NCBI GenBank assembly: GCA_902765305.1
Contig: CACWZI010000066.1
Location: forward strand, 1-33,325
Direction of reading: 5' to 3'
Length of the DNA: 33,325 nt
From: an uncultured Eubacteriales bacterium
GTDB taxonomy: Bacteria > Bacillota > Clostridia > Christensenellales > Aristaeellaceae
Shown here: piece by piece, positions 1,189 to 13,159 of the stretch
Position numbering within the stretch: position 1 is the stretch's first letter
Layout of the letters: every line of letters begins with the position of its first letter
Notes under the pieces: model-generated
Database searches by the model: none
Seen by the model: the letters and a program-made list of their open reading frames with translations, nothing else
What the model was told of the DNA's origin: nothing
Program-made: the position numbers and the translations under genes

Positions 1189-2639
1189 TATCCATTGATC
1201 AGCTGGAACTGATTCCCCATGACCTCAACGATCTCATAGTAGCTGGCGACCATGCGGTTGTAGTTCTCGTCGTCCATGCCGGTGGGGCGGTTTTCCAGAT
1301 AGCGGCCGGAGGGCAGCACCTTCACCGCGCCGTTCTGCTTCCAGGTATAGGTGGGAATATAGCCCACGTTGTCGACGGTGAACCGGCCCCCGGGCTGCTC
1401 GTTGACGGTGAAATCCAGTATCAGGCCGTTGTCCGTATATTGGACGATATGGTCGCTGATGAAGTTGCCCATGCAGAACATGGTCAGCACCTGCTTGTCC
1501 ACCCCGTCCACGGTGACGGACTGGAAGCCCATGGGCTGCACCTCGTGGGCGTGGCTGCCGATGATGATGTCCACGCCGGCCTCGGCCAGCTTCTTCGCGT
1601 ACTTCTTCTGGCTGCTGTCGGGCTCCCGCACGTATTCCGCGCCCCAGTGGGGCCAGGCGATGATGACCTCGGCGCCGGCGTCCCGCAGCTTCTTCACGTC
1701 GGCCTTGAAATCCGCCTTGCTGATATAGGGCACCAGGTCCACGGCCTCCTTGTCCACGCCCCGGTTTTCCATGCTGTTGGTGCTGTGGGTATAGGCCAGG
1801 AAGCCGAACTTGATGCCGCCCACCTCGCAGATCACCGTGCCCGCCTTCTCCGCCTTGGTGCGGTAGGCGCCCACGTGGGCGAAGCCGTACTTCTCCACGT
1901 TGTTCACGGTGTTCTCCACGCCGCCGCTCCAGCGGTCCAGCATGTGGTTGTTGGCCAGGGTCAGAAAGTCGATGCCGTAGTCCTTCAGCGGGGCCAGCGC
2001 CACGTCGGGGGCGTTGAACTGGGGATAGCCGGAATACTGGGACTTCTTATACTTGCCGATGGTGCCCTCCATGTTGCCCATGGTGTAGTCGGCGTCGGCC
2101 AGCTGCTCGGCGATCATCTCGAACTGGTTGTGGAAGTCGTAGCCGCTGTCCTTGGCGTAGACCAGCTGGCTCTGGCAGAACATGATGTCGCCCACCGCCC
2201 GCATGCGCACCGAGCGCAGCGAGCCGTCGGGCCGCCGGGTGGAGACCACGTGGTCGATGGCCTGGGGCAGCTCGGGCACGGGGGTGACCTCTGCGGCGAG
2301 GGCGGCGGCGTCCCCGCCCTCATCCCCGGACGGGGCGCTGTCCTGGGCGGCGGACTCGGTGTCGGTCATGGCCGCCAGGTCCGGCAGCGCGCTGTCGCCG
2401 GCACTGTCCGCCGCCACCGCCTGGGTCGCGACGGGCGCGGCGGTGGCCTCCACCATCGCGGTGACCGCGTCGGGGCTGCCCTTGGGCTTGAGGATCAGTA
2501 TCACCGCCGTGATGATCAGCACCGCGATGCCCGCGATGATGGCGATGGCGATCCGGTTCTGCCGCCGCTGGCGCATCAGGGCCTCGTACTGCTGGCGCGT
2601 CAGCCGCCGGGGAGCATTGGGATTGGGCCTGTTTTGCAT
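1188..2639 (-). CDS. CapA-like poly-gamma-glutamate synthesis/metallophosphatase-fold protein
   Basis: A 483-residue membrane-anchored protein of the PGA_cap (CapA) family, whose calcineurin-like fold acts at the cell surface; the exact substrate is not shown by the sequence. A basic N-terminus is followed by one membrane segment (about 30-50) and a low-complexity Ala/Asp/Glu linker (51-140). The metallophosphatase-like domain spans about 144-395. Visible signature blocks are VGDIMF (about 149-154), GNMEG (188-192), LANNH (228-232), HWG (331-333), GSHAH (361-365) and GNF (391-393). The ATG at 2639 has GGAGG about 7 bases upstream. The stop codon overlaps the end of repeat copy 2. The gene is divergent from the DUF421 gene and has its own promoter. 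Long reading frames on the opposite strand are shadows. Confidence 0.85.
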   Translation of the reverse strand: MQNRPNPNAPRRLTRQQYEALMRQRRQNRIAIAIIAGIAVLIITAVILILKPKGSPDAVTAMVEATAAPVATQAVAADSAGDSALPDLAAMTDTESAAQDSAPSGDEGGDAAALAAEVTPVPELPQAIDHVVSTRRPDGSLRSVRMRAVGDIMFCQSQLVYAKDSGYDFHNQFEMIAEQLADADYTMGNMEGTIGKYKKSQYSGYPQFNAPDVALAPLKDYGIDFLTLANNHMLDRWSGGVENTVNNVEKYGFAHVGAYRTKAEKAGTVICEVGGIKFGFLAYTHSTNSMENRGVDKEAVDLVPYISKADFKADVKKLRDAGAEVIIAWPHWGAEYVREPDSSQKKYAKKLAEAGVDIIIGSHAHEVQPMGFQSVTVDGVDKQVLTMFCMGNFISDHIVQYTDNGLILDFTVNEQPGGRFTVDNVGYIPTYTWKQNGAVKVLPSGRYLENRPTGMDDENYNRMVASYYEIVEVMGNQFQLING

Positions 2640-2698
2640 ATGTATTCCTCCGAAGCGGGCATTTCCCGCCTGTCATATCATACACGATGTACTTACAC

Positions 2699-2720
2699 AT
2701 AACTACCCTATTGTAGTTAT
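2699..2720. promoter_or_regulatory. Inverted repeat overlapping the capA-like promoter; candidate operator
   Basis: Perfect inverted repeat ATAACTAC-N6-GTAGTTAT in the divergent intergenic region. Its distal edge overlaps the -10 box of the minus-strand promoter, a usual place for a repressor site. No regulator is identified. Confidence 0.4.
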
Positions 2721-2747
2721 CATAAACCCTTTCATGGAATAAATCAA
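2719..2747 (-). promoter_or_regulatory. Predicted sigma-70 type promoter of the capA-like gene
   Basis: On the minus strand TTGATT-N17-TATGAT, with -10 at 2719-2724 and -35 at 2742-2747, about 80 bases upstream of the ATG. Spacing is ideal and each box has few mismatches. Confidence 0.55.
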
Positions 2748-2799
2748 GGGAAAAATGGGGAAAGTAGGCTTTGAAATATCAGTCGCAAAGGAGTTTCCG

Positions 2800-3516
2800 A
2801 TGTTCACCCTGTTTTTCCGCGGCGCGCTGCTGTATGTCGTGATGATCGTCACCATGCGGGCGCTGGGCAAGCGCCAGCTGGGCGAGCTGGAGCCCTACGA
2901 GCTGGCCATGACCATACTGCTGGCCGACCTGATCTCCTCGCCGATGGAGAGCGTCTCCACCCCGCTGCTGCACGGGCTGCTGCCGGTGGCGGCGATGTTC
3001 GTGGTGCACGGCGTCATCACGCTGGCCTCGATGCGCTGGGACCGGTTCCGGGCGCTGGCCTCGGGCAAGCCGGCGCTGGTGATCAACCGGGGCGTGATCG
3101 ACCGGCGGGAGCTGGACCGGCTGTGCCTGAGCCTGTCCGACCTGCTGGAGGGGCTGAGAGGCGCCGGGTTCCTGGACCCGGCGGAGGTGGGCACGGCCAT
3201 CGTGGAGGCCAACGGCGCCATCACCGCCTTTCCCGCCGGGGGCGAGCGTCCCCCCAAGGCCTCGGAGCTGGACATCGCGCCGGGCTACGAGGGCCTGCCG
3301 CTGGCGCTGATCACCGGCGGGCGGGTGCAGCCCGGCAACCTCGGGATGACCGGCCGGGACCGGCGCTGGCTGGAGCGTTTGCTTGCGGCCCGGGGGCTTG
3401 CGCCGAAGCAGGTGTTCCTGGCGTCACTGGACACCCACGGGCGCATGACCCTGCAGCTCAACGGCGGGGAGCTGATGCGCTTTTCTGCCATGGACGAATC
3501 GGAGGTGTGCTGGTGA
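2800..3516 (+). CDS. DUF421 family membrane protein (YetF/YcaP-like)
   Basis: A 238-residue inner-membrane protein. The N-terminus has hydrophobic segments (about residues 1-25, 35-55 and 60-80) that carry the family hallmark RALGKRQLGELEPYELAM. A cytosolic alpha/beta domain follows, containing the KPALVINRGVID block and a segment around LSDLLEGLRGAGF typical of DUF421. The molecular function of the family is not established; sporulation and envelope roles have been proposed. ATG 2800 is preferred over 2755 because AAAGGAG lies 6 bases before it and the protein then begins with the conserved MFTLFFRGALLYVV. The next gene starts 2 bases after the stop. The pairing with DUF4363 is recurrent in Clostridia. 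Confidence 0.88.
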   Translation: MFTLFFRGALLYVVMIVTMRALGKRQLGELEPYELAMTILLADLISSPMESVSTPLLHGLLPVAAMFVVHGVITLASMRWDRFRALASGKPALVINRGVIDRRELDRLCLSLSDLLEGLRGAGFLDPAEVGTAIVEANGAITAFPAGGERPPKASELDIAPGYEGLPLALITGGRVQPGNLGMTGRDRRWLERLLAARGLAPKQVFLASLDTHGRMTLQLNGGELMRFSAMDESEVCW

Positions 3517-3517
3517 C

Positions 3518-3901
3518 ATGCGGCGAACGCTGATACTGACGCTTACGGTGCTGGCCTGCGCGCTGGCGGTGTGCGCCCTTTCCCAGGCGACGCTGAACGG
3601 CACCGTGGAGGACGCCCGGCAGCTGCGCGCCCAGGCCCTGCTGGCCGAAAACGGCGGCGACGCCGATCGCGCCGGGGCGCTGCTTTCACAGCTGGCCCAG
3701 CTGTGGCAGGACAGGGCCGGCCTGCTGGAGAAGCTGGCCAGCCACGACGCCCTGCACGACGTGTCCGCCGCCATCGCCGAGGCGAAGATCTGCCTGGAAT
3801 GCCGGGATCACGACGACTTCCTGCGCACCATGTCCACCGTGGAAATGGGCCTAAACCACCTGAAGGACGAGGAAGCGGTCAGGTGGGAGAATTTGTATTG
3901 A
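3518..3901 (+). CDS. DUF4363 family protein
   Basis: A 127-residue protein with an N-terminal hydrophobic segment (about residues 4-24; signal anchor or signal peptide) and a helical remainder rich in Ala, Leu, Asp and Glu, ending in a motif around MSTVEMGLNHLKDEEAV. This matches the layout of DUF4363, which commonly lies beside DUF421 genes. The start is 2 bases after the upstream stop and GGAGGTG lies inside the upstream gene, so the two are probably translationally coupled. Function unknown; a partner role for the DUF421 protein is inferred from context. Confidence 0.75.
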   Translation: MRRTLILTLTVLACALAVCALSQATLNGTVEDARQLRAQALLAENGGDADRAGALLSQLAQLWQDRAGLLEKLASHDALHDVSAAIAEAKICLECRDHDDFLRTMSTVEMGLNHLKDEEAVRWENLY

Positions 3902-3925
3902 CAGGGGCGGGAGACCGGAGTAGAA

Positions 3926-4085
3926 TAATTAGAAATGAGGAATTAGGAATTAGGAATAGTGGTGCAAATCCCTACGGGATTTGATTTATTAAGTCCTGAT
4001 ACAGCGAGGCATTCACCCATTTTATCAAAGAAATCCGTAAGGATTTCCTCATCCATTCCTCATTCCTCATTCCTAATTCCCAATT
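3926..4085. repeat. Composite repeat element, copy 3 (ATTAGGAAT variant)
   Basis: The two arms are imperfect inverted copies of short GAGGAATTAGGAATTAGG units (about 3930-3957) and CATTCCTCATTCCTAATTCC units (about 4053-4080). Inside each arm lies a mini-hairpin: AAATCCC/GGGATTT at 3966-3982 and AAATCC/GGATTT at 4031-4046. The design matches copies 1 and 2 (short G-rich repeats plus AAATCC hairpins in inverted order), but the long palindromes are absent. It fills the gap between the DUF4363 gene and the MATE gene. No protein-coding capacity is seen. Confidence 0.65.
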
Positions 4086-4125
4086 CAAACGAAGCGTCAA
4101 ATCAGAATATACCAAGGAGCCTTCT

Positions 4126-5463
4126 ATGCCTTCCAAAGCCCACAACATGACCACCGGCAGCATCCCCCGGCACCTGGTGCGGTATTCGATCCCCGCGATC
4201 ATGGGCGACCTGTTCCAGGTGACCTATAACACCGTGGATTCCGTGATCGTGGGCCAGTTTGCCGGGGCGGGGGCGCTGGCGGCGGTGGGCGTGGCCAGCC
4301 CGCTGATGAGCGTGGCGATGTTCTTCATCATCGGCATGGGCATCGGCGCGTCGGTGCTGATGAGCGAGTTCTACGGCGCGGGCGACATGCCCCGGCTGCG
4401 GCGGCAGTTCGCTACGACGCTGGCCATGGGCGCGGCCTTCAGCCTGCTGATCGCCCTGGGACTGTTTGTGCTGACGGGGCCGCTGCTTCGGCTGTGCCAT
4501 ACCCCTGAAGCCATCTTCCCGGACACGGCCCGCTACCTGCGCGTCGTGGCCCTGGGCATGGTGGTCACGTCGTTATACAATATATTGGCGGCAGCCTCCC
4601 GCTCCATCGGCGACACCCTCACCCCGCTGATCTGCCTGGTGGCCGGTTCGCTGGTGAACGTGGGGCTGGATCTGCTGTTCGTGGCCCGCTTCGCCTGGGG
4701 CGTGGCCGGGGCCGCCTGGGCCACGGTGATCTCACAGGCCCTGTCGGCGCTGCTGTGCGCCTGGCTGCTTCGGCGCAACGAACCGATGCTGTTCGCTGGA
4801 CAGGGGGATTTCAAGCCGGACCGGGCGCTGTTCGGCCGCACGCTGCGCTTCAGCGCCCCCAGCGCCCTGCAGCAGGCGGGCATCTATGTGGGCAAGCTGC
4901 TGGTGCAGTCGGCGGTCAACCCGCTGGGCGTCAGCGCCATCGCCGCCTTCAACGCCGTCAACCGCATCGACGACTACGCCCTGATCCCCGAGCGTGACAT
5001 CGCAAACGGCGAGACCGTGCTGGTGGCCCAGAACCGCGGCGCGGGCAAGGCTGACCGCATGCGCTGGGGCTTCCTCGCGGCCATGGCCCTGGAGGTCGCC
5101 TATGGGCTGGTGGTGTCCGTGGCGGTGTTCGCGCTGGCGGGGCCGCTGATGGGGCTGTTCGTCGATCCCGGCGAGGCGGAGGTCATCCGCCTGGGAACGC
5201 GCTACCTGCGGCTGATGGGCCTGTTCTACATACTCCCCGGCATCACCAACGGCCTGCAGGGCTACATGCGGGCCTTGGGCAAGCTGAAGCTGACCATGGT
5301 GGTCACCTACGGCCAGATGTTCACCCGGGCCGCCTGCACCTTCCTGCTGATCGGTTCCATGGGCCTGGACGCGGTGCCGCTGGCCTGCGTCGCAGGCTGG
5401 GTAATGATGACGGTATGGGAGGTCGGACTGATGATCAAGTGGAGGAAAAACGGCCATGACTGA
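4126..5463 (+). CDS. MATE family multidrug/cation antiporter
   Basis: A 445-residue polytopic membrane protein expected to export organic cations or drugs in exchange for Na+ or H+. The sequence has about 12 hydrophobic segments in two related halves. The N-terminal half shows the MATE hallmark IPAIMGDLFQVTYNTVDSVI and GALAAVGVASPL. The second half repeats the pattern (for example SAIAAFNAVNRIDDYALIP and the ITNGLQGYMRALGK block). The length fits the family. ATG 4126 has AAGGAG six bases upstream. It overlaps the start of tadA by 8 bases, so the two are cotranscribed. The substrate cannot be told from sequence. Confidence 0.92.
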   Translation: MPSKAHNMTTGSIPRHLVRYSIPAIMGDLFQVTYNTVDSVIVGQFAGAGALAAVGVASPLMSVAMFFIIGMGIGASVLMSEFYGAGDMPRLRRQFATTLAMGAAFSLLIALGLFVLTGPLLRLCHTPEAIFPDTARYLRVVALGMVVTSLYNILAAASRSIGDTLTPLICLVAGSLVNVGLDLLFVARFAWGVAGAAWATVISQALSALLCAWLLRRNEPMLFAGQGDFKPDRALFGRTLRFSAPSALQQAGIYVGKLLVQSAVNPLGVSAIAAFNAVNRIDDYALIPERDIANGETVLVAQNRGAGKADRMRWGFLAAMALEVAYGLVVSVAVFALAGPLMGLFVDPGEAEVIRLGTRYLRLMGLFYILPGITNGLQGYMRALGKLKLTMVVTYGQMFTRAACTFLLIGSMGLDAVPLACVAGWVMMTVWEVGLMIKWRKNGHD

Positions 5464-5911
5464 CGCCGATTTCATGCGCGAGGCGCTGGTCGAGGCGCGA
5501 CTGGCCGCAGTCGCCGGCGAAATGCCCGTGGGCTGCGTGATCGCCCGGGACGGGGAAATCGTCGCCCGGGCCCACAACGAATGCGAGGCCCGGCGGGACG
5601 CCACCGCCCATGCCGAGCTGCTGGCGATCCGCCGGGCCAGCGCCGCGGCAGGCGACTGGCGGCTGAACCGCTGCACGCTCTACGTCACGCTGGAGCCCTG
5701 CCCCATGTGCGCCGGGGCCATCGTGCAGGCGCGGGTGGGCCGGCTGGTGTACGGCGCGGCGGACCCGGGCCAGGGCTGCGCCGGCAGCCTGTACCGCATC
5801 TGCGAGGACCCGGCCTTCCCCCACTTCTGCAAAAGCGAAGGCGGCGTGATGGCGGAGGAATGCCAGGCGCTGCTATATGGTTTTTTCGAGCGAGCCCGGA
5901 AGAGGCTATAA
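5456..5911 (+). CDS. tadA: tRNA-specific adenosine-34 deaminase (TadA)
   Basis: Zinc-dependent deaminase that converts the wobble adenosine of tRNA-Arg(ACG) to inosine. The 151-residue protein has the cytidine/deoxycytidylate deaminase fold with the active-site HAE motif (His52, Glu54) and the zinc ligands PCPMC (Cys82, Cys85). The MPVGCVIARDG block near residues 23-33 and the NRCTLYVTLEPCPMCAGAI stretch are diagnostic. Its start lies inside the last codons of the MATE gene (8-base overlap). The AT-rich island begins directly after its stop. Confidence 0.93.
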   Translation: MTDADFMREALVEARLAAVAGEMPVGCVIARDGEIVARAHNECEARRDATAHAELLAIRRASAAAGDWRLNRCTLYVTLEPCPMCAGAIVQARVGRLVYGAADPGQGCAGSLYRICEDPAFPHFCKSEGGVMAEECQALLYGFFERARKRL

Positions 5912-6049
5912 TCTTAAGGCAACACTTATCTTCCTATATTATCGCTTTGATACGATTCAGGAAGCAAGATTCCGCGTCTGTGTATTGTTTCAGCTTTTCT
6001 CGTATTTTCTGCCCGTTATGTTTTGTGGAGGCAACTTCCGTTTTGTTAC

Positions 6050-6078
6050 TTGAACTTTGGCGTTATTTATGGTATGAT
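6050..6078 (+). promoter_or_regulatory. Predicted promoter of the methyltransferase/Mrr operon
   Basis: TTGAAC-N17-TATGAT (-35 at 6050-6055, -10 at 6073-6078), about 175 bases before the first gene. The 5912-6253 gap is AT-rich and holds no convincing coding frame. The remaining leader of roughly 165 nt has no obvious terminator. Confidence 0.5.
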
Positions 6079-6253
6079 TCCTGATGGGATCGTATCTGGT
6101 TGATGTATTTTTTGATTTGCCATCTATAATTATTCACCAGATCAGGATCATTGTCCTCTTTTCCCGCAATAGTACCGGCATCAGTGGACTTTCACCCACT
6201 TTTCATTTGGGAAGCATGGTCGTTACATGCAGCCTTGAGGAGTAAAGTATTTT

Positions 6254-9136
6254 ATGCCAACAATAGACAGAATTCCGACGCTACAGTATATGGGCAGCAA
6301 AAGTCGAATGCTCGAAGAAATCTGTACGCCCGTAATATATAATCAAGAGATACAACAGGTTGTCGATCTGTTTGCAGGTACAGGAAGTGTCGGATATGCC
6401 CTCGCACCTTATAAAAAAATCATCAGCAATGATATCGAGTATTATTCATATGTATTGAATTCAGCCATTCTTAATGGCTGCCAGTTGAGTTCCCTGGAAT
6501 TGGAAGCCCTGCTTAAAAGCATAGATCAGAAATGGAGGATTAGCAAGCGCTTTCTTAATAGAGAGATTACTGCGGAAGAGAGCTTCTTGGCCTCTCCTTT
6601 GTCTGCCTATGAGGAATACGCGACTTTCTCACATGATACCCCCAGTGTCTTTCATGTTGACTCTAATTCTCAAGGATTCGAAGGTCTGAAAGCCTTGGTA
6701 CAAACAGTAACCCCTGGCGCGCCGAATCAGGAAGTTCCGTTTCCGTGCTTATTTGTGACCTATTTCTCAAATGCGTATTTTGGAATTAAACAATGCTGTC
6801 AAATTGACGCTATAGCTTCGACAATAGCAGAATTACCTGATGAACAACAGCGCTTTACTTTGCTTGCCGCGCTCATGACGGCTACAAGCGCTACCGCTTC
6901 ATCTACGACGCACTTCGCTCAATTCTTGACAGTCAAGAATAAAAACACATTTAGGAATATTAAGGAAAAGAGAAGCACTGATATTATACAGTTGTTTAAA
7001 GATGCCCTAACCAGGTTTGAAGACAAAGGGCTTCTGAACAAGGCAGATAAAAAACATGACTGCTTCAATATGGATTTTGAGGGTTGTCTGCGGAAAATAG
7101 ATATCGATGAGCATACACTTGTGTATGCGGATCCACCCTACTTCAAAGAACACTATTCTCGGTACTATCATGTGCTGAATACAATGTGCTTGTACGATTA
7201 TCCGCAACTGGCCATCAATCCACAGAACAAGCAATACGCTGTAGGAAGATACCGCGCAGATAGGAATATTTCGGATTTTGGCAAAAGATCAAAAGCATTG
7301 TTTGCCTTTGGCCGATTAATCAATGCCTGTGCGGATAGAAAGGCCAATCTTCTGATCAGTTATTCTGAAAATTCATTGGTCAAGATCTATGAATTACTTC
7401 GACTGACAAAAACACGATACAGCGTATCTGTAAAGAAGGTTACCCTTAAGCATTCAAGCCAAGGAAGAGCTACCGAATCTGATCAAACTGTAAAGGAGTT
7501 CCTGTTTCACTGTTCTCTACCTGACAGCCGAGAACTTGAAATCGAAAAAACCGCAAATTCCATCCGAACAATCAAGCCGGTTGTGGACAATCCTGGTGGT
7601 TTCATTCATAATTATATGGCGAGAAAACCTTATAATGTCGTATCCGCTATCATTGAAGGTTTTTCTAAGCCAAAGGATTTCGTCTATGACCCGATGTTTG
7701 GTTCAGGAACTGTTCTAATTGAAGGTAGTAAACTCGGCAGGCGTGTCATTGGAACGGACATAAACCCGATCGCTAAAGAAATTTGCTCGATTTCGCTCAG
7801 CCAATGGGATTTGGCTAAGATCAATGCATTGATTGATCAATTCGTTAAGGAAGTAGAGGTTTCCTGCTCTGATGTTTATACCTTTACTTCTGAGGGTGAA
7901 ATGCGCGTCATAGAGCGTTGTCATTTTGACTATAGGGACAATGGGTTCGTTCCCACCGCGTATTGGTATAAAACCATAGTCGGCAGTAAATGGAGTGGAC
8001 GAAAGAAGTGTGATGCATCCACATCTTTTCGCGAGAATTACGATTTACTTCGTCATGAATCCCTTGCAAGGCTTCATGATCGCCCGCTTATACCCAATTC
8101 CAGAATTGCAATCAAAGAAGGCGCTACGGTCTTCAGCTACTTCTGCAATCGGAATATCATTGCGCTGGATAGGATTCTATCTATTCTGGATCAGTACAAG
8201 AACAACTATGGATATGAGGTTCTCAGGTTGCTTGTGTCATCCTCCATCAACCTGATTAAACTATCCGACAAAAAAGCCTCCAGTCAAATGCCTTACTGGT
8301 TACCTAGGAATAACGCCACTTCACGTAATGCTGTATTCATCATTCAACAAAAGGCAAAAGCAATGAAAGACGGCCTTAGGTATCTACAAGACCATTGCCA
8401 ATCCTTCATCGACAATGGCAAGGCGTTCATCTACAATGATCCTGCGCAAAGAATCAGCTGCGATAAACTGCCAGACGATAGCGTTGATCTCGTGGTAACG
8501 GATCCACCTTACACGGATCAAGTTCCCTATCTTGAATACAATCAGCTGTGGCTATACCTCCTTGACATGGATGGAATGGTGAACTTCGATGACGAACTGG
8601 TTGTATCTGATGCTCCGCGGAGAAACAAAGATCAGCAGGATTTTGACACTGTTTTTAGTGCAATCATCGAGCGGACAGCAAAATGTCTGAGAGAGATGGG
8701 TGTATTCGTGATGTTCTATCATACTTTCGACTTGAAATCATGGTCTAATCTTTTGACCATGATGAGAACAAACGGATTAAAATACGTCTATCAGATTCCG
8801 ACACCAACGCCCCGAAAGTCATTTAAAACCATCATGTCTCCTCGAAGTACGCTGGATGGAAACTATGTGTTGTTCTTTGTTAAGGATCCGCATGGTATTA
8901 ATAAGACCTTTGGTGGCGATTTATCAGAAGCTGTCGATATGGCTATCGCGTGCGCGGAGAGGATCATTCGGTCCCAGGAGAACGTAACGACGCAAGATCT
9001 GTATGATCAAGGAATGTTGAAAGAAGCATTTGAAGAGGGTTATTTAGAAACGCTATCAGAACGATACAGAACTTTTGCGGATATCGTCAAGTATAGATTC
9101 AAATATGAAAACGGCTATTGGGAGGTGTCAGAATAG
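6254..9136 (+). CDS. Double DNA methyltransferase: D12-class adenine MTase fused to an N6/N4 MTase
   Basis: A 960-residue protein with two methylase cores. Residues about 8-420 form a D12-class (Dam/FokI-type) N6-adenine methyltransferase: YMGSKSRML (12-20), SAM-binding VVDLFAGTGSVGY (36-48) and catalytic ADPPY (292-296). Residues about 443-890 form a second core of the N6_N4_Mtase/COG1743-like group: motif X-like HNYMARKP (452-459), SAM loop DPMFGSGT (479-486) and catalytic TDPPY (749-753), separated by a long insert that may carry target recognition. No nuclease motif is seen. The ATG is preceded by GAGGAG at about 11 bases. The stop TAG shares its last base with the GTG start of the next gene, implying coupled translation. 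Base composition is clearly more AT-rich than the flanking genes, a sign of horizontal transfer. Biochemical specificity is unknown. Confidence 0.85.
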   Translation: MPTIDRIPTLQYMGSKSRMLEEICTPVIYNQEIQQVVDLFAGTGSVGYALAPYKKIISNDIEYYSYVLNSAILNGCQLSSLELEALLKSIDQKWRISKRFLNREITAEESFLASPLSAYEEYATFSHDTPSVFHVDSNSQGFEGLKALVQTVTPGAPNQEVPFPCLFVTYFSNAYFGIKQCCQIDAIASTIAELPDEQQRFTLLAALMTATSATASSTTHFAQFLTVKNKNTFRNIKEKRSTDIIQLFKDALTRFEDKGLLNKADKKHDCFNMDFEGCLRKIDIDEHTLVYADPPYFKEHYSRYYHVLNTMCLYDYPQLAINPQNKQYAVGRYRADRNISDFGKRSKALFAFGRLINACADRKANLLISYSENSLVKIYELLRLTKTRYSVSVKKVTLKHSSQGRATESDQTVKEFLFHCSLPDSRELEIEKTANSIRTIKPVVDNPGGFIHNYMARKPYNVVSAIIEGFSKPKDFVYDPMFGSGTVLIEGSKLGRRVIGTDINPIAKEICSISLSQWDLAKINALIDQFVKEVEVSCSDVYTFTSEGEMRVIERCHFDYRDNGFVPTAYWYKTIVGSKWSGRKKCDASTSFRENYDLLRHESLARLHDRPLIPNSRIAIKEGATVFSYFCNRNIIALDRILSILDQYKNNYGYEVLRLLVSSSINLIKLSDKKASSQMPYWLPRNNATSRNAVFIIQQKAKAMKDGLRYLQDHCQSFIDNGKAFIYNDPAQRISCDKLPDDSVDLVVTDPPYTDQVPYLEYNQLWLYLLDMDGMVNFDDELVVSDAPRRNKDQQDFDTVFSAIIERTAKCLREMGVFVMFYHTFDLKSWSNLLTMMRTNGLKYVYQIPTPTPRKSFKTIMSPRSTLDGNYVLFFVKDPHGINKTFGGDLSEAVDMAIACAERIIRSQENVTTQDLYDQGMLKEAFEEGYLETLSERYRTFADIVKYRFKYENGYWEVSE

Positions 9137-11505
9137 TGTATTGGCTTCTTGACTATGAAGAACAGGATAGAATACGTGAAACCATCCTTTCACTTCATAA
9201 TACTTTGGCCTTGCCCCACAGAAGAGTGCAGGAAGACCAAACCTTTCCGTTTGTCGGCAGGAAGGATCGAGGTATTGCCGCGACAATCATTGAGTCATTG
9301 TCCCCGGAGGGTGGAATGGTTTGCGACCCCTTTGCAGGCTCAGGAACCTTTGTTTACTCAGCCCTCGATTGCAATCGAAATGTTAAGGCAAATGAGTGGG
9401 AGCCGTATGCGCATGAGATGATGACCGCGCCGCTGACAGAGCTTCCTACACTATCTGAATATAATGAGGCCCTTGCTTCCTTTATTAGCTTTGTCCTTCC
9501 GGTTATGCAGAGAATCTATGAAACAACTTGCCCTGAATGCAACGAAAAGATCATGTTCGATGGAATATTCTTTGACAGAAGCCCTGAAGAATACTTCAAT
9601 CCGACTTTGCATGAGAGGCTTGGCCGGAACAATCATGAAAATGTAATCTTCAGGGGAAAGTATAAGTGTCCCAAGTGTGGATGCAAAGAAAAGAACTATG
9701 ATGATAATGACGAAGCCGTGCGGCAAGGGCTTGATCAGATAGAGTATTCATTTCCCGATGTGCCAATCATTGAAAACTCCAGGCTCAATTTCACCTCGCC
9801 CGACTTTACTCGCTATGGATCGCTGTTTTCAAAACGTCAGAAAATAGCGCTATCCACCATGTCTTCGGCAATACTGAATTTATCAGGAAAATCCAGGAAA
9901 TTCTTCTATGATACCTTCCTTTCGATCATTCATCTTGGGAAGTATACTGATTACAGGAGCAAAAGTCAGGACAACCATTGTCCCGCAAACCGATTAAAGG
10001 AAACAAATCTTTATTATCGTTATCTTGAAAAACTAAATGAACGCTGGGATTATATTACAAGATTTCGTAAAGAAAATGATACTACCAAAGCCGAAGTGTC
10101 TTTTTCGGATTTCAGGGAATTCCTAAATGAGATAGAATCAGGAAGCGTAGACCTGTTGATGACCGACCCTCCATTTGGAGACACAGCGCAGTATTTTGAA
10201 CATGCGCAGAGAGTGCATCCTTTCATTCCCTATTCATTGATGAATGATAAAGAACGACTTGCAAAGGAAGTGGTCATCAGCAATGCCCCCAGTAGGGAAG
10301 ATAAACATGGTGACGAACAGTTCATGCGTGATATTGAAGAACTGTTTATGTTAGGGTCTGCTGTGATTAAGGAACACGGCTATTTTGTATTGTATTTTCG
10401 TCCGAAGCAGAGTAGCTGGATCTCTAATCTCAATCAGCTAAAGCATTTCGGGAGAAAGCATGGACTGGAACCCTTGATGGCTATATCTCTGGAAATAAAG
10501 GATCCCTCCATGCGTGCATTAGCCTCTGCCGCGTGGACATTTAGTAAGGATACCTGTTTTGTGTTTCTGAAATTGAAAGAATCTGAGCGGAGATGGTATG
10601 AGGGAAACGTAGATGTTGACGAATTGGTCTATCTGGCTGCGTCTAAAGCAGCGTCAGACGAAGGGAGACCATTTGTTGTTTCGAAATTTTACGGTTCCCT
10701 ACAAACTAAATTGCGAAGTGAAAATCTATCAAGACTGTCATCGACCGTGTATCAAAGGCGTTTTCTTGATACGCTGTTACGCTATGCAAATAAAGATGGA
10801 GCACAGTATTATCTGAAAGGCGATTCCCCTTATGATTTCATCAATCGTGAAGAAGATGCAGAACTCAGGCTGCGGGAATTTGCGCCATTGGTTTTAGAGG
10901 AATTAGGCGCCAATGGCAAAGGGTTTTCCTTTGAAGACTATGTGTTGCGTCTTTCAACATATCTTGATAATGGCAGTCGTACAATAGTTCAAAGACTAAA
11001 GGTTGTCAATCCCCTTATTTCAGAGTTCGCAGAGAGGATGACATACAAAGCAGCCGATTCAGGCACGGACAAAGAGCAATTATTCCTAAAGCAGTATATT
11101 CCGCCAGAAGAAGATGCCGGGAAAACCAGTCTGTACAACATGGATCCTTATGATTTTGAGCGTCTAGTTGCTGACTATTTCGTCAAACGGGGCTATGTAA
11201 AAGCAGAGACAATAGGGGGATCTGGCGACAGAGGTGTCGACGTCCTTGTCACAAACTTATCAGGAGATTATGAGTTTATCCAATGCAAGCGCTATAGAAA
11301 AGGCAGTAATATTGGTTCTACCCCAATCCAACGAGTCGATAGTATGCGAATCAGCAGAGGAGCTGTAAAAGCTTGGGTATTTACTACCTCTGATTTTACC
11401 CCAGAAGGAATTGATGAGGCTCGTATCACAGGGGTAAATCTTGTGAACGGCGCAGAATTGATAAAGTCTTTGGAGCTTTACTATCCAAACAAATACTGTC
11501 TGTAA
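9136..11505 (+). CDS. Zn-ribbon DNA methyltransferase fused to Mrr-type restriction endonuclease domain
   Basis: A 789-residue fusion. The N-terminal methyltransferase has the SAM loop DPFAGSGT (64-71), a Zn-ribbon insertion with CPEC (132-135) and CPKCGC (178-183), and catalytic TDPPF (343-347). The following VVISNAPSRED block matches VVSDAPRRNKD in the upstream protein, so the two cores are paralogous. Residues about 500-665 are a largely helical linker without recognised motifs. Residues about 666-782 match an Mrr/PD-(D/E)XK nuclease: DPYDFERLVADYF, GDRGVDVLV with Asp702, and IQCKRY with Gln716 and Lys718. The start is set at GTG 9136, which follows GGGAGGTG by 7 bases and overlaps the upstream TAG; an in-frame TTG at 9118 lies before that site and is less likely. 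AT-rich like its partner. Likely a combined modification/restriction protein; cleavage rule unknown. Confidence 0.85.
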   Translation: MYWLLDYEEQDRIRETILSLHNTLALPHRRVQEDQTFPFVGRKDRGIAATIIESLSPEGGMVCDPFAGSGTFVYSALDCNRNVKANEWEPYAHEMMTAPLTELPTLSEYNEALASFISFVLPVMQRIYETTCPECNEKIMFDGIFFDRSPEEYFNPTLHERLGRNNHENVIFRGKYKCPKCGCKEKNYDDNDEAVRQGLDQIEYSFPDVPIIENSRLNFTSPDFTRYGSLFSKRQKIALSTMSSAILNLSGKSRKFFYDTFLSIIHLGKYTDYRSKSQDNHCPANRLKETNLYYRYLEKLNERWDYITRFRKENDTTKAEVSFSDFREFLNEIESGSVDLLMTDPPFGDTAQYFEHAQRVHPFIPYSLMNDKERLAKEVVISNAPSREDKHGDEQFMRDIEELFMLGSAVIKEHGYFVLYFRPKQSSWISNLNQLKHFGRKHGLEPLMAISLEIKDPSMRALASAAWTFSKDTCFVFLKLKESERRWYEGNVDVDELVYLAASKAASDEGRPFVVSKFYGSLQTKLRSENLSRLSSTVYQRRFLDTLLRYANKDGAQYYLKGDSPYDFINREEDAELRLREFAPLVLEELGANGKGFSFEDYVLRLSTYLDNGSRTIVQRLKVVNPLISEFAERMTYKAADSGTDKEQLFLKQYIPPEEDAGKTSLYNMDPYDFERLVADYFVKRGYVKAETIGGSGDRGVDVLVTNLSGDYEFIQCKRYRKGSNIGSTPIQRVDSMRISRGAVKAWVFTTSDFTPEGIDEARITGVNLVNGAELIKSLELYYPNKYCL

Positions 11506-11800
11506 AGGGGGATACGAATATATTTTCTCTTCCTTGCCAGAATAGCATTTTCATACAAGACAGTTCCGAGGACGGAACGGCGAGTGGAAGCTTTTGTAGG
11601 CGCAATGGAACCACAACGAAGTATTACAGTCAAGAACGATCGGAAGGAATACTGGTCTGAAAAGAAAAATGAATTCAATTTATCCATGGCTCTTATGTAG
11701 CTAACCTCCACGGATAAGATGCTCATCGAGGGGGCTGCGGCCTGCCCTCTCCAGATGCATAGCGGAAACGCTGTGCTGAATCGGATAAATATACATTAGT
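11506..11800. other. Gene-free gap after the methyltransferase/Mrr operon
   Basis: About 300 bases with no supported gene. A small hairpin GTTCCG-AGGA-CGGAAC occurs near 11566-11581. No U-tract terminator, tRNA gene or direct repeat marking an island boundary was recognised. The short open frames here have no ribosome binding sites. Confidence 0.5.
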
Positions 11801-11818
11801 ATGCATTATTTATGCATT
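11800..11818. promoter_or_regulatory. Candidate ArgR-type operator upstream of argG
   Basis: Contains the perfect inverted repeat TGCAT-N5-ATGCA in an AT-rich setting, 30-odd bases upstream of the argG -35 box. Size and AT-rich centre resemble arginine-repressor boxes, but the match to the TGAAT half-site consensus is only partial. Confidence 0.35.
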
Positions 11819-11847
11819 TATTTAACTGAAACAGCGCCCATCAAGGC

Positions 11848-11875
11848 TTGACTTTGCATAAAAACGGCCTATAAT
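11848..11875 (+). promoter_or_regulatory. argG promoter
   Basis: TTGACT-N16-TATAAT (-35 at 11848-11853, -10 at 11870-11875) gives a 5' leader of about 45 nt with AAGGAG at 11913-11918, 8 bases before the ATG. Confidence 0.75.
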
Positions 11876-11926
11876 ATACACAGTCGAACGAAAACAAGCG
11901 CCCACGGGCGACAAGGAGCGATAGCT

Positions 11927-13159
<1,233 letters not shown>

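Follow-up and report, generated by a model that had tools for sequence, protein, structure and literature searches.

What kind of system is formed by two adjoining genes that share between them three DNA methylase cores and a single nuclease? The question is raised by genes A and B at positions 6254 to 11,505 of contig CACWZI010000066.1, from an uncultured Eubacteriales bacterium (the window, here the whole stretch of 33,325 nucleotides that was analysed). An initial annotation, made from the letters of the DNA, had left the choice between a dual-strand modifier with a fused nuclease and a nuclease guarding against foreign methylation. Judging from the sequences, I favour a version of the former: A-B is probably (at a rough probability of 0.75) a mobile Type II restriction-modification (R-M) system of the combined kind, similar to Types IIC, IIG and IIS, in which A would protect the host and B would recognise a site and cut nearby. 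The result would be a restriction system of compact build: three methylase cores, including a pair of paralogues, are divided between a predicted protective and a predicted cutting protein. The domains, the catalytic residues, the co-conservation of the two genes, their insertion and, in some loci, their defence neighbours are observations, and are reported below together with the readings they bear on.

Gene A (6254..9136, plus strand, as are all parts of the module given here) is an intact open reading frame (ORF) of 960 amino acids and the predicted modification subunit, M1M2, two fused DNA methylases. Its residues 1-424 (6254..7525) form a D12-type adenine methylase (Pfam MethyltransfD12, 5e-21) with the motifs FAGTG (6371-6385) and ADPPY (7127-7141), and residues 425-880 (7526..8893) a second methylase core (N6_N4_Mtase, 6e-18) with DPMFGSGT (7688-7711) and TDPPY (8498-8512). 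Read from the sequence, the S-adenosylmethionine (AdoMet) motif of this second core is followed by a long insert and then by the catalytic motif. Gene B (9136..11505) encodes the predicted restriction subunit of 789 amino acids, a methylase core fused to an Mrr-type nuclease. Residues 1-499 (9136..10632) are the methylase core with a zinc-ribbon-like insert (N6_N4_Mtase, 4e-8), comprising DPFAGSGT (9325-9348), the cysteine pairs CPEC and CPKC (9529-9540 and 9667-9678) and TDPPF (10162-10176); residues 667-778 (11134..11469) are the nuclease (Mrr_cat, 6.7e-24), with Asp702 (11239-11241) in a GVD motif and Gln716-Cys717-Lys718 (11281-11289). For residues 500-660 in between (10633..11115), Pfam returned nothing at E up to 1. 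In the sequences of all three cores, the AdoMet motif comes first, then an insert and then the catalytic motif, and all three are presumably alpha-class methylases. The three methylase cores and one Mrr nuclease in two genes, as first annotated, are thus borne out by intact frames and by matches to MethyltransfD12, N6_N4_Mtase (twice) and Mrr_cat, and the motifs named at that time are all present and largely kept in relatives; of the profile matches that had been anticipated, DUF1156 is the one not found in Pfam.

The mechanical ORF call for B begins at 9118. Its probable start, to judge from the conserved N-terminus MYWLLDY, is the GTG at 9136, which yields 789 residues and fits the numbering Asp702 and QCK 716-718 used in the initial annotation. 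The TAGTG overlap described there is real, the stop of A and the start of B sharing one base, and in the eight relatives of the same layout B begins, as MYWLLDY, at the A stop or one base later.

Relatives were collected by B-based searches of genome contigs, viral contigs, phage records and phylum-wide genomes, the whole-genome scans covering Bacillota; this gave a set of 13 full-length B proteins, including that of the window, and a set of 12 A proteins. Scanning genome contigs with B returned seven relatives of 58-83% identity, each with a full-length A directly upstream (52-69%). L047/L048, L052 (MT836948), L060 and L061 came from viral contigs and phage records, searched with B or with B alignments, and the phylum-wide search added G085/L051. 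A adjoins B in 12 of the 13 loci, and in the thirteenth, L060, the contig stops at the last base of B; the joint conservation expected of a two-gene module is therefore found in all 12 B loci where it can be assessed. Pairwise identities of A and of B correlate at 0.99 over the 12 loci and at 0.95 among the nine close ones, which reflects joint inheritance and hence is not proof of contact. Because 12 pairs exist, the most distant of them 25-30% identical to the window's, their adjacency is more than chance: A-B is a real, mobile, co-conserved module.

The pairs come in two layouts. In nine loci (the window, L003-L009 and L048) A and B are co-directional and overlap or abut, and in three (L051, L052 and L061) they are convergent; the B of L060 belongs to the same group as the latter, whose proteins are those 25-30% identical to A and B of the window. 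In all four loci of the convergent group, the gene immediately upstream of B is of the helix-turn-helix (HTH) kind, a position in which controller genes of R-M systems are often placed. A small Cro/C1-type HTH gene is located upstream of A in L008 and L048, and in the same place L009 has an HTH-like ORF below the Pfam cut-off.

The module is sparsely distributed. B was found in two of the 398 Bacillota genomes sampled, the window's own and G085, and the same two account for all occurrences among the 391 genomes of the class; within the family of G085, two of 120 genomes match B, one being G085 itself and the other an Mrr-domain fragment. With A as query (E 1e-25), 12 of the 398 genomes gave matches, full length in the window's own genome and G085 and partial in the other ten. 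None of the plasmid protein records covered 80% of the query (0/44 for B, 0/21 for A), and among phage proteins the full pair occurs in one record, MT836948 (one of six A records and the single B record). At G863 C1 160730-161110, a fragment matching the nuclease of B (E 1e-21) lies in a 175-residue open frame with two stops in the match, possibly a decayed or truncated relative.

Within these sets the catalytic residues of A and of the nuclease are kept. In the alignment of A proteins, ADPPY of the D12 half is present in all 12 sequences, as are TDPPY and GSG of the second core (12/12 each); motif I of the D12 half is variable in the three convergent sequences, and the cysteine motif of the second core looks complete in the convergent group only. 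The D and QxK of the B nuclease are present in 13/13, as QCK in 12 and as QSK in L060. Four cysteines of B align in all 13 proteins, the first pair as CxxC or CC and the second as CxxC or CxC, and because this spacing varies both the zinc ribbon and zinc binding by B are to be taken as putative. In L061, A is divided into two overlapping genes, for a D12 methylase of 411 and a methylase of 536 amino acids, which makes A a fusion of two separable enzymes.

Two of the three cores have a common origin. Residues 425-960 of A and 1-499 of B align over 438 columns (hhalign E 1.1e-47, probability 100), and by this profile comparison the second core of A and the core of B are paralogous, as had been suspected from a shared sequence block; the D12 half is less closely related to either (E 2e-13 with the B core, 7e-7 with the second core of A). 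A tree was built from 33 cores: the second cores of the 12 A proteins form one group (support 90/89), the cores of the 13 B proteins another (100/99), with both layouts present in each, and eight outside relatives a third. Judging from this branching, the separation of the A and B cores seems to predate that of the two layouts, as does the three-core composition; the tree is unrooted with two long branches, the 90/89 for the A group lies under the program's mark for strong support, and the tree is silent on whether a duplication inside the module gave rise to the two cores.

For a Type II system of this composition, the activities, the strand assignment, the shared recognition and the cleavage geometry may be pictured as follows. 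The D12 half of A would protect the host by marking one strand of an asymmetric site at N6 of adenine, and the second half would mark the other strand, at N6 of adenine or N4 of cytosine. The methylase core of B would bind AdoMet and recognise the same or an overlapping site through its cysteine-bearing insert, serving mainly for recognition and AdoMet sensing, and the Mrr PD-QxK domain would cut outside the site if the protective marks are absent, probably once two bound B proteins have paired. On the model of BtgZI (10/14) and MspJI (12/16), the cut is predicted to leave a 5' overhang of 4 bases, some 10-16 bases away from the site.

The closest likenesses to such an arrangement are found among Type II enzymes. 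BtgZI, of Type IIC (GCGATG 10/14), is described as an alpha-class methylase at the N-terminus and, at the C-terminus, a PD-(D/E)XK nuclease in which Q takes the place of E (PMC4081073). In layout B is alike by description: its sequence places a presumed alpha-class methylase ahead of a PD-QxK domain in one chain. According to the same source, a pair of methylases, one for each strand, is usual for Type IIS enzymes, and in some cases, such as FokI, the two are fused; combined Type IIC enzymes may be accompanied by no separate methylase, by one, or by two, as in BpuSI (PMC4081073). BpuSI is a Type IIS/C/G enzyme (GGGAC 10/14); the methylase of RM.BpuSI itself is not considered its main protection, and an AdoMet-binding mutant loses cleavage (PMC3817140). 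By description, BpuSI has the same three methylase cores and one nuclease as A-B, as a fused enzyme plus two methylases; it differs in that RM.BpuSI joins an N-terminal nuclease to a gamma-class methylase, in that the target base of M2.BpuSI is cytosine, and in that M1 and M2 are named as two methylases, whereas A is one fused chain. In MhoVII, a YhdJ-type methylase is fused to a D12-type one, and the fusion marks GATG and CATC (PMC12898733). FokI and MhoVII thus share with A the two methylases in one chain (PMC4081073, PMC12898733) and differ in that the endonuclease is a separate protein, which the excerpts of these two sources do not describe with a methylase core. A pair of methylases, as in FokI, MhoVII and BpuSI, is found here as two cores in A and as two genes in L061, and asymmetric sites need separate recognition of both strands (PMC12707154).

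The initial annotation had stated that classical Type I, II and III systems do not have this layout. For Types I and III this stands, as a motor is lacking, and both were rejected for A-B because no helicase domain (Pfam, E up to 1) and no other long ORF in the insert was found; for Type II the statement is too strong, given BtgZI, BpuSI and FokI as described in the excerpts of PMC4081073. Each part thus has a known counterpart, and the combination of a fused D12 and second methylase with a paralogous methylase-Mrr fusion looks new. Pfam, PADLOC, NCBIfam and solved structures matched only parts of A or B, and no family covering both proteins at full length was found there, REBASE being outside the search. 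Solved structures, searched by sequence with E up to 0.1, gave ten short methylase matches for A and none for B. Among the matches listed, no A-B-like system was described in titles and abstract openings of the open literature, a search outside of REBASE and subscription papers. If A-B works as proposed, it would add a likely source of nucleases that cut outside their site, and a family for annotators to name.

The second core of A and the core of B do match weakly to DUF1156/COG1743-type and PglX methylases of BREX-like systems, and the DUF1156 methylases of BREX-related systems are described (PMC12839542). A-B might accordingly be a cut-down relative of BREX/DUF1156 or of MADS-type defence, blocking phage without site-specific cutting, and weak matches of A and B to the DUF1156_antiphage, PglXI and mad2 models could be read in this way, as could the distant methylase relatives, of the second core of A, that are located beside DUF2357 genes or, on a plasmid, in a BREX-like locus containing BrxA and PglZ genes. 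However, the scores are far under the curated cut-offs (44.8 bits vs 1000 for A against DUF1156_antiphage NF042963; 16.4 vs 720 for B against MADS NF047738), neither A nor B attains the cut-off of any curated NCBIfam model, and a DUF1156 match is absent from Pfam. In addition, a nuclease is fused to the B core, the insert of the window has no room for BREX core genes or any other long gene, and among the relatives' flanking genes listed, no PglZ- or BrxC-like gene was seen by eye. I regard a BREX or MADS derivation as highly improbable.

Several observations weigh against the Type II proposal. Motif IV of B reads TDPP(F/Y) in 10/13 proteins and TDFPY in 3/13, and in motif I an E replaces D in L003, L004 and L051 (3/13); because of these altered motifs the B core may not methylate in all members, and methylation by B itself is less certain than the conservation of the catalytic motifs of A and of the B nuclease. 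The TDFPY variants are three of the four B proteins of the convergent group. The inserts of the A second core and the B core show no sign of co-evolution over 12 loci (18.6% identity within and 18.8% across loci; permutation test, p 0.72), and shared recognition is unsupported by that test. The predicted structures of A and B are of moderate quality (mean predicted local distance difference test score, pLDDT, of 68), with mixed confidence in residues 500-660 of B and values <50 at residues 552-598. Foldseek with these models returned generic methyltransferases and MspJI, weakly, with query-length TM-scores of <=0.16 among the matches listed, and the alignment to MspJI has a root-mean-square deviation of >20. 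No regulator-like ORF was recognised by eye in the leader ahead of A, nor any controller gene in the window. Finally, PD-QxK Mrr-type domains occur also in modification-dependent enzymes (PMC12707154).

This last point leads to the second option of the initial annotation. Spelled out here, B would be a Type IV-like nuclease that depends on modification: the methylase core would act as a sensor, the Mrr domain would cut foreign methylated DNA, and A would provide the tolerated pattern. E. coli Mrr and MspJI are modification-dependent enzymes with PD-QxK domains of the type that B has (Mrr_cat), and read DNA through winged-helix or SRA domains (PMC12707154); the weak structural match to MspJI and the TDFPY in three of the four B proteins of the convergent group would fit in as well. 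However, what B has in common with these enzymes is the nuclease, while a methylase core, with TDPP(F/Y) in 10/13, takes the place of their winged-helix or SRA readers. No helicase, winged-helix or SRA domain was found in A or B (Pfam, E up to 1), and on domain content B was not classed as Type IV. Type IV nucleases are not known to need a cognate methylase, and B was not found without A wherever this can be tested. I consider a guard against foreign methylation unlikely, and less likely than the Type II system.

Within the Type II proposal, a more specific version can be formulated, which I hold to be rather doubtful. The B core would be a reader derived from a modification methylase like the second half of A, kept for recognition and AdoMet sensing instead of protection, so that the nuclease checks the mark of its sister domain. 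A and B would be obligate partners in a single complex made up of the three cores and the Mrr domain, in which writer and reader are paired by a logic like that of an active/inactive methylase heterodimer, and I found no description of such an origin for a restriction family. If B does read with a core derived from a writer, A-B would offer a direct route to study how a restriction enzyme takes its specificity from a methylase, and by what means the two remain matched.

The module is located in foreign DNA. It lies between tadA (5456-5911) and argG (11927-13159), preceded by a low-GC leader (5912..6253, plus strand) with a Shine-Dalgarno-like run, GAGGAG, near 6237. DNA similarity to same-genus relatives reaches ~5899 at most on the left and resumes at ~11785-11791 at the earliest on the right, and from these positions I conclude that about 5.9 kb came in (approximately 5900..11785, no strand assigned). 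The assumption that the two AT-rich genes arrived together agrees with a GC content of 0.426 in the cassette vs 0.607 in the remaining window, with the lack of a full-length B in all 27 same-genus genomes (three of them show matches to the Mrr domain only), and with the tightest spacing of tadA and argG in relatives, ~145-150 bases.

Patchy spread (2/398 sampled Bacillota genomes, the window's own included) and carriage on prophage-like contigs could also indicate a module that is mostly selfish, or that serves to maintain a prophage, acting through post-segregational killing by R-M and not as host defence. In L061 the module has portal and terminase genes nearby, whereas L051 has a primase and a head protein and L060 a phage helicase/primase, and L048 as well as the A fragments L049 and L050 are IMG/VR contigs. 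The window copy, however, stands alone between tadA and argG, in an insert with no integrase or phage gene and no room for another long ORF, and several copies adjoin other defence genes. A mainly selfish role seems very unlikely to me, and selfish and defence roles can coexist.

The defence neighbours differ from locus to locus. L003 and L004 have GajA and GajB directly after B, these Gabija genes (L003 12410-15536, L004 7643-11186) starting ~16-21 bases past it; because their best PADLOC models are different, Gabija seems to have joined independently at the same spot. In L005, a PDC-S06 gene precedes A, and B is followed by a gene with Type II restriction-enzyme matches and then by another, unmatched in PADLOC, that by eye resembles McrC. 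A GmrSD_N gene follows B in L007, and in L009 a PDC-S20 gene, preceded by a DUF6414 gene, is located two genes after B. In L052 (MT836948.1), a PvuII-like restriction endonuclease at 7347-8189 (28.3 bits in Pfam, where the cut-off is 25) overlaps the HTH gene that lies upstream of B. The operon at this locus may thus include a second nuclease; no such gene was seen by eye in L051, L060 or L061.

The gap between tadA and argG takes up other DNA too, as is evident from other genes in four same-genus genomes. The tadA locus was found in 26 of the 27 other same-genus genomes, with argG within a flank of ~1.5 kb in 17 of these and not in nine (some contigs end there). Among eight longer tadA regions, the gap is 0.2-1.1 kb in three (L114, L115 and L118) and 5-7 kb with other genes in four (L111, L112, L113 and L116), and in L117 argG is absent from the contig. 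A large gene occupies the gap in L111 (G008, 2136-7419), L112 (G025, 6051-12957) and L113 (G017, 2165-9069), in the first two a TIR domain joined to leucine-rich and DUF285 repeats, and in the third alike by eye. It is followed by an ion-channel gene (Ion_trans_2 in L111, an RyR match below the cut-off, by eye in L113) and a gene of ~600 amino acids with no assignment; together these look like a candidate defence operon of the TIR and leucine-rich repeat (LRR) kind. In L116 (G005, 2483-7730) the gap holds ~5.2 kb of different DNA, in which two long ORFs on the minus strand look by eye like secreted proteins.

Relatives of the D12 half of A are placed in cassettes that resemble R-M systems, which also favours the Type II proposal: some adjoin nucleases of the BglII/BstYI family or a DUF2357 gene, and others adjoin phospholipase D (PLD)-type genes and a second methylase. 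Cassettes of a PLD-like gene, a D12 methylase and a second methylase are located at L103 (G139, 1201-4991) and L104 (G294, 1924-5594), the PLD match being below the Pfam cut-off in the former and above it in the latter. Their D12 methylases, open frames of 462 and 440 amino acids, are related to the first half of A, and I take these cassettes to resemble BfiI-type systems.

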